28,099 nucleotides of DNA from positions 1 to 28,099 of the IMG/VR virus record IMGVR_UViG_3300021961_000477; one strand, written 5' to 3'. Source of the stretch: a virus. A program made the position numbers and the translations under genes. Shown here one piece after another: positions 25,009 through 28,080 of this stretch (position 1 is the stretch's first letter; each line of letters opens with the position of its first letter). The notes below the pieces were generated by a model. That model saw only the letters and a list, made by a program, of their open reading frames with translations. It had not been told where the DNA came from and made no database searches.

Positions 25009-25036
25009 TTGACTTTTCTTCCCCTACCTGTATAAT
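25009..25036 (+). promoter_or_regulatory. Promoter TTGACT-16-TATAAT for a leader RNA
   Basis: -35 at 25009-25014, a 16-base spacer, -10 TATAAT at 25031-25036. The expected start, 25043, is the first base of the long stem of the RNA at 25043-25130. Confidence 0.82.
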
Positions 25037-25042
25037 GTCCTT

Positions 25043-25130
25043 TGTGTGGGGTGTGGTCCTTTAGTAATAGAGGACCTCCACCGGATGCCTAGAGTGAGCT
25101 ATCCCAACTATCTCACCCCACACATTTTTT
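25043..25130 (+). ncRNA. Structured leader or small RNA with three helices and a T-run end
   Basis: The ends pair: TGTGTGGGGTG (25043-25053) with CACCCCACACA (25114-25124), 11 bp perfect, followed by six T. Inside, GGTCCT (25055-25060) pairs with AGGACC (25071-25076), extended by GTG/CAC, and GTGAG (25094-25098) pairs with CTCAC (25112-25116) plus TA/TA. The last helix competes with the end of the outer stem for 25114-25116. A 12-base single strand lies between the inner helices. It is an independent small RNA ending at the T-run, or a regulatory leader for the gene at 25137. I do not recognise a known class. Confidence 0.68.
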
Positions 25131-25136
25131 ACTACC

Positions 25137-25346
25137 ATGGCTAAGACGATAAACGTAAAAGTCGATCTAAAGATTAGAACGATCATTGCAATCGACCATC
25201 ATTCTTGGTACGATTTGGATGGATGTTCTATCTGTACCATCACCGAAGAAGATTACAATAAACTTGTAGGTGGTGCTAAGACTGTGGGTCAAATAACTCC
25301 GCTGTCTGAGATCAACCTTAGATCCTGTGTCCCAAGGGAGGCTTGA
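25137..25346 (+). CDS. Small hypothetical protein downstream of the leader RNA
   Basis: 69 residues, beta-rich start (KTINVKVDLKIRTIIAI), then a Trp/Tyr/Asp turn and a C-terminal half with two Cys. The ATG sits six bases after the T-run (context ACTACC-ATG), like the leaderless genes around it, and there is no ribosome site. The stop TGA is part of the next element. No motif recognised. Confidence 0.68.
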   Translation: MAKTINVKVDLKIRTIIAIDHHSWYDLDGCSICTITEEDYNKLVGGAKTVGQITPLSEINLRSCVPREA

Positions 25347-26236: not shown

Positions 26237-26767
26237 ATGCGAAACAAGCCTAACAATCCTGAGCTTGATCCTAACGTTAAGTATAGGGTCTACCGTAACT
26301 TGACGGACAAGACTCTGTCCATCATGGATACCCGCACTAAGAAGGTGGTGGGTCATACCAGTAAGATTCTTCTTAGAGAGGTTAAGTTCATTGTCTCTAA
26401 GCGTGGTGTGGAGCGCATTCGTGATTCCCGTAGAAAGCAAGTGGTAGCTTTCGCTGAAGGCTACTTTGTTAACTATTTCGGCTTGGGTGCTGAAGGTCCC
26501 ACTGAGTTTAAGGACTGGGAATCTAAGTACGCTGACAGCGAAGCTATCTACTTCAATCCTTACAAGTACGATACCTTCGTAAACGCTATCCAAGAGCCTA
26601 TCTTCTATAAGGAATACGTTCAGATTAGTGATGATGGCTGGATTTACGGCTGGAATAAGCCTGATTCTAACTTTCGAGTCTGGGCTAAGTACGAGCATCA
26701 GAAGGAGCTTGCAACCAAGCCTATTAAGCTTATGACGGGCTTTGCAATAGATACGGATAAGCCTTGA
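26237..26767 (+). CDS. Conserved-type phage hypothetical protein
   Basis: 176 residues. The N-terminal pattern VKYRVYRNLTDKTLSIMD...VVGHTSKILLREVKFIVSKRGVERIRDSRRKQVVAFAEG is a type I know from many phages (a YRVYRNL / RKxVxAFxxG family), role unknown. The rest is Tyr/Trp-rich. The stop TGA is inside the next element, so the final residues KP come from the junction. Confidence 0.74.
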   Translation: MRNKPNNPELDPNVKYRVYRNLTDKTLSIMDTRTKKVVGHTSKILLREVKFIVSKRGVERIRDSRRKQVVAFAEGYFVNYFGLGAEGPTEFKDWESKYADSEAIYFNPYKYDTFVNAIQEPIFYKEYVQISDDGWIYGWNKPDSNFRVWAKYEHQKELATKPIKLMTGFAIDTDKP

Positions 26768-26791
26768 CTTTTCTATGTATAGCCCTATAAT
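26764..26791 (+). promoter_or_regulatory. tRNA cluster promoter TTGACT-16-TATAAT
   Basis: -35 at 26764-26769, a 16-base spacer, -10 TATAAT at 26786-26791. Transcription should start near 26798, seven bases before tRNA-Leu. Confidence 0.85.
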
Positions 26792-27396: not shown

Positions 27397-27424
27397 TTGA
27401 CTTTTCTGGACAGGAGTATATAAC
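27397..27424 (+). promoter_or_regulatory. Leaderless promoter TTGACT-16-TATAAC
   Basis: -35 at 27397-27402, a 16-base spacer, -10 TATAAC at 27419-27424, then TATACC and ATG 27431. Confidence 0.78.
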
Positions 27425-27794: not shown

Positions 27795-27899
27795 GGGTGG
27801 GTAGCATATATTGGTAATGCGTCCCTATTGATACCGTCATGTCGGCCTAAATACCTTAGGTTTTCAGGGAAGAAGGAGGTTCGATCCCTTCCCCGCCCA
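27795..27899 (+). tRNA. tRNA-like gene with a 39-nt anticodon loop (insertion or intron?)
   Basis: Acceptor GGGTGGG (27795-27801) pairs with CCCGCCC (27892-27898, one T-G); TA at 8-9; D arm GCAT-9 bases-ATGC (27804-27820) with GG; anticodon stem TCCCT (27822-27826) with AGGGA (27866-27870); T arm GGAGG-TTCGATC-CCTTC (27875-27891); discriminator A. Every tRNA part is in place, but the anticodon loop is 39 bases (27827-27865), 32 more than normal, and contains its own hairpin CCTAA-ATACC-TTAGG. CCA is not encoded, unlike the other six tRNAs. It may be intron-bearing, a decayed tRNA, or an RNA with another role. Confidence 0.6.
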
Positions 27900-28080
27900 C
27901 ATTTATTTCAATCCCATGCTTGGATAACATCAAATTTAGCTCCGAAATTTGATGAGAATCCCATCTCAACTCCTCGGATAATGTTTCGAGTAGAGTTTTT
28001 ACAAAAGTTTTATACTTTTGGGCTTGACTTTTCTGATAAGTAAGCTCTTTTTTTAAACTTTTAGGCTTATTTTTAGCCAT
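27856..28080 (-). CDS. Doubtful small basic helical protein
   Basis: 74 residues from ATG 28080. The N-terminal ~55 residues are a plausible Lys-rich helix (SLKKELTYQKSQAQKYKTFVK...LLETLSEEL). The end, GGEGIEPPSS, is antisense translation of the tRNA-like T arm, a well-known artefact signature, so the gene would overlap the tRNA by 44 bases. It also reads through one cassette element (as QKSQAQ) and two perfect hairpins. It may be real with a ragged 3' end, or spurious. Confidence 0.35.
   Translation of the reverse strand: MAKNKPKSLKKELTYQKSQAQKYKTFVKTLLETLSEELRWDSHQISELNLMLSKHGIEINVGGEGIEPPSSLKT
27928..27954 (+). other. Perfect 10-bp hairpin
   Basis: CATCAAATTT-AGCTCCG-AAATTTGATG. A second hairpin, CAAAAGT-TTTAT-ACTTTTG, lies at 28002-28020 just before the last element copy. 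Confidence 0.5.
28024..28032 (+). repeat. TTGACTTTT copy 14 (last)
   Basis: The last copy of the element, in AT-rich sequence, with CT after it and no -10 box. A run of seven T follows about 17 bases downstream. No plus-strand gene begins before the window ends. Confidence 0.8.

Follow-up and report, generated by a model that had tools for sequence, protein, structure and literature searches.

Position of the element in the phage genome

What do the roughly 88 bases encode that separate a promoter from the start codon at position 25137 of the window, the whole stretch of 28,099 nucleotides analysed here? The source record is a 28-kb IMG/VR virus, an uncultured T4-like myovirus, in which the large terminase matched T4-type terminases and the portal matched PHROG 213. 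The right part of the window is an early-type region, which carries small orphan genes and six tRNAs. The features of the locus are as follows:

25009-25036, plus strand: sigma-70-type promoter of the RNA (TTGACT-N16-TATAAT), a member of the repeat family D4/D5/D6, which are promoters of the same region
25043-25130, plus strand: predicted RNA gene of 88 nt (82-nt structured body plus U6), with a fold z of -5.0 and a covariance model match
25043-25050, plus strand: 5' strand of P1, pairing with 25117-25124; lineage-specific sequence with compensatory changes
25051-25053, plus strand: invariant GUG, partner either 25114-25116 (11-bp outer stem) or CAC 25079-25081 (base of P2, three-way junction)
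25055-25076, plus strand: P2 hairpin of 9 bp (25055-25063/25068-25076) with the GNRA tetraloop GUAA at 25064-25067
25082-25093, plus strand: J2/3, CGGAUGCCUAGA, invariant in the alignment and mostly unpaired; 25083-25093 lie inside the 17-mer bait (25083-25099)
25094-25116, plus strand: P3, GUGAG 25094-25098/CUCAC 25112-25116, invariant, so that covariation neither supports nor refutes it
25117-25124, plus strand: 3' strand of P1, from the stem search and covariation
25125-25130, plus strand: U6 tract adjoining the stem, an intrinsic terminator together with P1
25137-25346, plus strand: downstream orphan gene of 69 amino acids, starting 6 nt past the U tract

The promoter agrees with the sigma-70 consensus at 11 of 12 positions, which is the joint best value in the region. 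About nine other promoters have an ATG 6 nt behind the -10 element (eight at +6, plus the one at 27397-27424). Thus, the start codon is the expected transcription start and the cassette mRNAs look leaderless. At 25137 the distance between the -10 element and the ATG is 100 nt, which is the sum of 6 nt, the 88 nt of the element and another 6 nt (ACTACC), and the RNA therefore occupies the exact place of a leaderless gene start. These numbers confirm the initial annotation, which had recognized the usual ACTACC-ATG context and an insertion of about 88 bases relative to other cassettes. The tRNA cluster, too, has a promoter of this type in front of it (26764-26791), and thus RNA genes on these promoters are normal in the window. 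The gene at 25137 lacks a -10 element of its own and is therefore reached by terminator read-through; its product had no family match in Pfam or PHROGs.

The cassettes of this part of the window carry other repeats. Nine near-identical intergenic elements of about 68 nt (family D1, CCCCTGCGGGGCCGGGCC..TTCGG..CCGTA), which are G+C-rich hairpins, lie 3' of stop codons between 18621 and 24423. Most of them are followed by a TTGCAA-N16-TAYAAT promoter with the ATG 6 nt behind the -10 element. From 24728 on, a second promoter block (GCTTGACTTTT..TATAAT) replaces the first one and the leaderless spacing is unchanged. The genes at 25343, 25781 and 25975, which have no -10 element, carry the TTGACTTTT half of the promoter directly 5' of their ATG. 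This half overlaps or abuts the stop codon of the preceding gene (gaggcTTGACTTTTATG) and forms a common cassette joint.

Folding of the RNA

The element is predicted to form an unusually stable structure. For 25043-25136 a folding energy of -38.2 kcal/mol was calculated, compared with -21.8 ± 3.3 kcal/mol for shuffled sequences (z = -5.0), and none of 200 shuffles was as good. A perfect 11-bp stem (25043-25053/25114-25124) directly abuts T6 at 25125-25130. We counted stems with 10 bp or more, six or more GC pairs, a span of up to 160 and an abutting T5, and shuffled windows gave 0.07 such stems per window. The predicted transcription start at 25043 is indeed the first base of this stem, as had been noticed at the outset.

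Two alternative folds can be drawn, and both share P1 (8 bp) and P2. In the first one, GUG 25051-25053 lengthens P1 to 11 bp. In the second one, the base of P2 consists of this GUG and CAC 25079-25081, and GUGAG pairs with CUCAC as P3, so that a three-way junction results. Both are built from invariant bases. The extended outer stem was 3-5 kcal/mol more stable than the junction fold in all four lineage sequences, as calculated with an energy model that omits tertiary contacts. Since P3 and the pairs at the P2 base show no variation in any of the four lineages, the three-way junction is unproven relative to the plain 11-bp outer stem. The P2 base is predicted to form first during transcription. 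P3 competes with only the innermost three of the 11 outer-stem pairs, and in the window at least 7-8 GC-rich P1 pairs stay beside U6 in either fold. Thus, a classical terminator/antiterminator switch is not formed. Two inner helices, one of them competing with the outer stem, had been part of the initial annotation; both helices were recovered, and the competition holds for these three pairs only.

Relatives in other phages

As bait for relatives we used the exact 17-mer of the core, GGATGCCTAGAGTGAGC (25083-25099), which was scanned over IMG/VR. Sixteen loci were found: eight carry the same RNA, seven a different conserved element and one is a chance match. The eight RNA contigs represent three further lineages, one formed by L161, L162, L168, L169, L170 and L173 and the other two by L164 and L172. 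At the locus, the RNA is the only DNA common to the four lineages. The window and L162 also share a phrog_2554 protein gene away from the locus, and L162 and L172 share a phrog_8676 gene; both shared genes are located hundreds of bases or kilobases from the RNA. The phrog_8676 protein, the function of which is unknown, is encoded at 5409-5633 in L162 and at 4512-4733 in L172, within about 1 kb of the RNA. When the whole records of eight isolate phages with phrog_8676 were searched with the RNA model, nothing credible was found.

In the alignment of the four lineages, 55 of 84 columns are invariant and 38 of these lie outside the bait; the invariance of the core is exaggerated, partly by ascertainment, because the four lineages were found through the exact 17-mer. 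In P1, five of eight pairs were changed on both sides and pairing was retained at 100%. For P1 and P2 together, seven of 21 pairs were changed on both sides, and RNAalifold agrees with this pairing. Here, 98.8% of the cells were paired compared with 87.2% in shuffled alignments and 37-57% in slid controls, and none of 500 shuffles reached the covariation score, although shuffling four sequences is a modest control. Every P2 retains an A-GNRA-U cap (tetraloop GCAA or GUAA in the relatives) while its arms vary with compensation. The P3 loop contains an invariant motif (CCCAACUA, 25103-25110) followed by Y, and the family L3 reads CCCAACUAY. A leave-one-out covariance model built from the other three lineages found the element in the window at exactly 25043-25124 (86.7 bits, E = 3.9e-18). 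Among the six close relatives, the RNA is identical at 79 of 79 positions and the 300-nt flanks at 290-300 of 300, a difference which lends weak support to the RNA. Taken together, these data establish by computation a strongly conserved structured RNA family with covarying P1 and P2 in four otherwise unrelated phage contexts. The RNA proposed in the initial annotation thus withstood the comparison of homologues, and that observation was right and understated.

The family is new in that it is not in Rfam 15 and has no counterpart in the literature searched, the large published lists of predicted phage RNAs lying outside this comparison. When the window and relative loci were scanned, no Rfam 15 family reached its gathering threshold on the RNA and none was credible at E-values up to 10. 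The core sequence did not occur in the full texts of the literature searched. By blastn, neither the RNA nor its relatives had a true match in phages, plasmids or E. coli genomes, and at this sensitivity the RNA is absent from about 50,700 deposited phage records. Neighbouring proteins used as bait in viral contigs yielded either nothing or unrelated contexts. No relative came from a scan for the promoter motif or from 141 loci examined for promoter-anchored stems, and the 17 loci found in genomes with the pattern of the outer-stem arms were all unrelated inverted repeats. The model R1 gave two weak matches (29-30 bits) in 1,476 bacterial genomes from four phyla other than Pseudomonadota; we judged both to be chance, because about this number is expected for so many genomes. 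Of these two, the one showing a P3-like hairpin is located within long open reading frames that overlap.

The seven other loci with the same exact 17-mer (L159 and six others) have a different fold, score 11.6 bits and are not members of the family. Their element is 64 nt long (L159 10756-10819; also L160, L163, L166, L167, L171 and L174), has the sequence ACATAACCCAGG(G)ACCGTTTGGTGTTATGAGGCGGCTGCTGCCTTGGAGGGATGCCTAGAGTGAGC and lies after a stop codon and before the following ATG, at several different genes. It shares the exact 17-mer, and often a 20-mer, with the RNA core, and no Rfam match was obtained for it at the loci scanned.

Genomic position in the four lineages

The surroundings of the RNA differ between the lineages. 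In the L162 lineage, about 2 nt separate the RNA from the stop codon that closes an operon, and the gene on its other side is convergent. In L164, it follows a stop codon at a distance of 7 nt and lacks a U tract, and the next gene is reached after about 125 nt. In L172, the distance to the preceding stop codon is about 8 nt, and the ATG of an orphan gene stands directly behind the stem and a U5 run; the protein encoded there had no family match. No recognizable promoter was found 5' of the RNA in L162, L164 or L172. The downstream gene differs in every lineage, with different orphans in the window and L172, and in three of the four (window, L162, L172) the neighbourhood is a region of replication genes or of small orphans. 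The hallmarks of a free-standing small RNA (a promoter of its own, a start at the base of the RNA, a terminal U tract) are present in the window only. Since in L162 a convergent gene faces the RNA and no gene lies behind it, a role as leader or riboswitch cannot be general. The positions across the lineages therefore favour a free-standing trans-acting RNA over a cis-acting role as the function of the family. Moreover, besides the window the RNA occurs in three or more unrelated phage lineages, which suggests that it probably does a job needed by many phages, one that goes beyond control of the next gene.

Proposed function and alternative explanations

With a probability of roughly 0.55, we consider 25043-25130 to be a self-contained gene for a trans-acting phage non-coding RNA of about 88 nt that represents a new family, with the gene at 25137 as a passenger. 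Action in trans is suggested by the genomic positions described above. The RNA would be transcribed from its own sigma-70-type promoter, presumably early, and transcription would end at the outer stem and U6. P1 would close a three-way junction from which P2 extends as a GNRA-capped hairpin and P3 as a short hairpin. The invariant surface formed by J2/3 and the P3 loop is a putative binding site for a conserved partner, and P1 and P2 would serve as scaffold only. Candidate partners are a host protein, a host RNA or ribonucleoprotein, or a phage factor. In L162, L164 and L172, the lineages without an obvious promoter, the RNA may be released from the operon transcript, because it begins 2-8 nt past a stop codon. 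The gene at 25137 would be expressed as a passenger by read-through of the terminator.

Base pairing with ribosomal RNA does not appear to be the mode of action. The family core has no complementarity of at least 10 nt to E. coli rRNA, and we therefore rejected an rRNA antisense role. Complementarity of this length was also lacking between the unpaired segments and the rest of the carrier contigs. GGAUG in J2/3 presumably resembles part of the CsrA consensus; it is one site with a mismatch and constitutes no evidence.

A more specific and quite tentative suggestion is a mobile device for host takeover: a rigid RNA that attaches through its invariant junction and loop surface to a conserved component of the bacterium (an RNase, for example, or else a translational regulator or defence ribonucleoprotein) and either inhibits or redirects it. 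Unrelated phages would trade this RNA effector as a gene that stands alone.

Besides a small RNA with an intrinsic terminator, the initial annotation had offered a switch that controls the gene at 25137. The first of these is well supported by the conserved, covarying family in unrelated phages; the second, a cis-acting attenuator or riboswitch-like leader, we regard as unlikely. Here, P1 and U6 would stop transcription before the gene at 25137, and a ligand or protein bound to the core would let the polymerase pass. The RNA does occupy exactly the interval from promoter to ATG, and other cassettes lack a leader there; the missing -10 element of the gene fits, the ATG in L172 likewise stands directly past a stem and U5, some pairs of the terminator stem face a competing helix, and a P1-last architecture is common in transcriptional riboswitches. 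However, the alternative fold of a riboswitch would destroy the terminator stem, and in our case the competing helix takes three of 11 pairs and eight GC-rich pairs are kept beside U6. Nor do the members precede genes of related function: the orphans of the window and L172 differ, the next gene of L164 is about 125 nt away and that of L162 is convergent, and L164 lacks the U tract altogether. The location 2-8 nt past stop codons in three lineages could also indicate a processing element or a self-cleaving ribozyme, with a catalytic core or a structure past stop codons that is recognized by an RNase and defines transcript ends. The compactness of the junction, its invariant residues and the GNRA loop would be in line with this, as would a scattered and mobile distribution among phages, which small ribozymes typically show. 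Nevertheless, we consider it improbable, since the local stretches matched no Rfam ribozyme family even at E 10, known small ribozymes need fewer invariant positions than this RNA has, and in the window the RNA starts at P1, behind a promoter of its own.

Three further explanations concern the nature of the element. An element acting at the DNA level (recombination or integration site, origin, mobile palindrome), the arms of which resemble an RNA stem by accident, would be common to unrelated phages, form an imperfect inverted repeat and be inserted at different places, as was found. Yet the arms vary with compensation and the loop tetramer stays GNRA, conservation is internal and not at the ends, and promoter and T6 frame the RNA exactly in the window, so that this explanation is quite improbable. 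Integron attC sites show the reverse pattern, conservation at the ends and not inside, and an attC-like site was rejected. Type III toxin-antitoxin loci have the order promoter, structured RNA, terminator and small downstream gene, and the locus in the window shares this ToxIN-like order, which would make the RNA an antitoxin or decoy; an RNA anti-CRISPR that mimics a CRISPR repeat is a related idea. We hold either to be very improbable. The RNA is a single copy without tandem repeats, the downstream proteins of the window and L172 lack a family match and are unlike each other, such a gene is absent in L162 and none is conserved with the RNA, and no CRISPR-repeat-like short hairpin is apparent. 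The type III assignment was rejected, as there are no tandem RNA repeats and no toxin of the ToxN/CptN/TenpN type, the gene at 25137 having no Pfam or PHROGs match. Finally, one reading frame crosses the core without a stop codon in each of the four lineages. It would encode a conserved short peptide, LHRMPRVS[K/Y]PNYLT, and two single-base changes of the core are synonymous in it. However, invariant bases occupy 11 of the 14 third codon positions, there is neither a Shine-Dalgarno sequence nor a leaderless start, the frame enters non-conserved P1 sequence, and P1 and P2 covary. Coding of this peptide is therefore hardly credible and was rejected.

Comparison with known systems

The Rfam 15 families of riboswitches, ribozymes and marine or cyanophage motifs include RNAs of similar size with a P1-closed multi-helix junction, but none of them matches our RNA. 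The PeSL elements of T4-type phages, known as mobile regulatory cassettes, are plain hairpin-promoter cassettes. The locus in the window resembles them in having a promoter and a stem-loop between small early genes of a T4-like phage. Unlike PeSLs, it carries a conserved multi-helix RNA 3' of the promoter, which recurs in unrelated phages without the promoter.

Few structured RNAs are conserved across phage lineages, and most of these have proved to have important jobs. The family described here adds to them an RNA of about 85 nt that has no Rfam 15 entry and presents a defined invariant surface. Synthesis of the RNA, pull-down against bacterial lysates and knock-out in a carrier phage make direct tests of its function feasible.

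Known small RNAs of phages include IsrK of Gifsy-1 (PMC4825925) and the anti-sRNAs of EHEC phages (PMC4104026), and the subject has been reviewed (PMC12197685). In general, such RNAs and the RNA of the window are short, have their own promoter and an intrinsic terminator and probably act in trans. The known phage small RNAs act mostly by base pairing and are limited to closely related prophages and hosts, whereas in our RNA the fold covaries and the core is conserved between phages that are unrelated.

Other structured elements

Two related stem elements of about 70 nt (GTGGGGTGRCAC...GYCACCCCACGCTTTTT) were seen on different contigs of the MAG nzgw343 (L150 1177-1253 and L151 6648-6724); they look like a repeated structured RNA or a mobile element. 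In the window, 27795-27902 forms a tRNA-like fold with a 7-bp acceptor stem (GGGTGGG/CCCGCCC), a D-arm and a T-arm (GGAGGTTCGATCCC). Neither ARAGORN nor Rfam called a tRNA at this position. The loop of its anticodon arm comprises about 38 nt, and the structure may be a tRNA interrupted by an insertion, or else a decoy.
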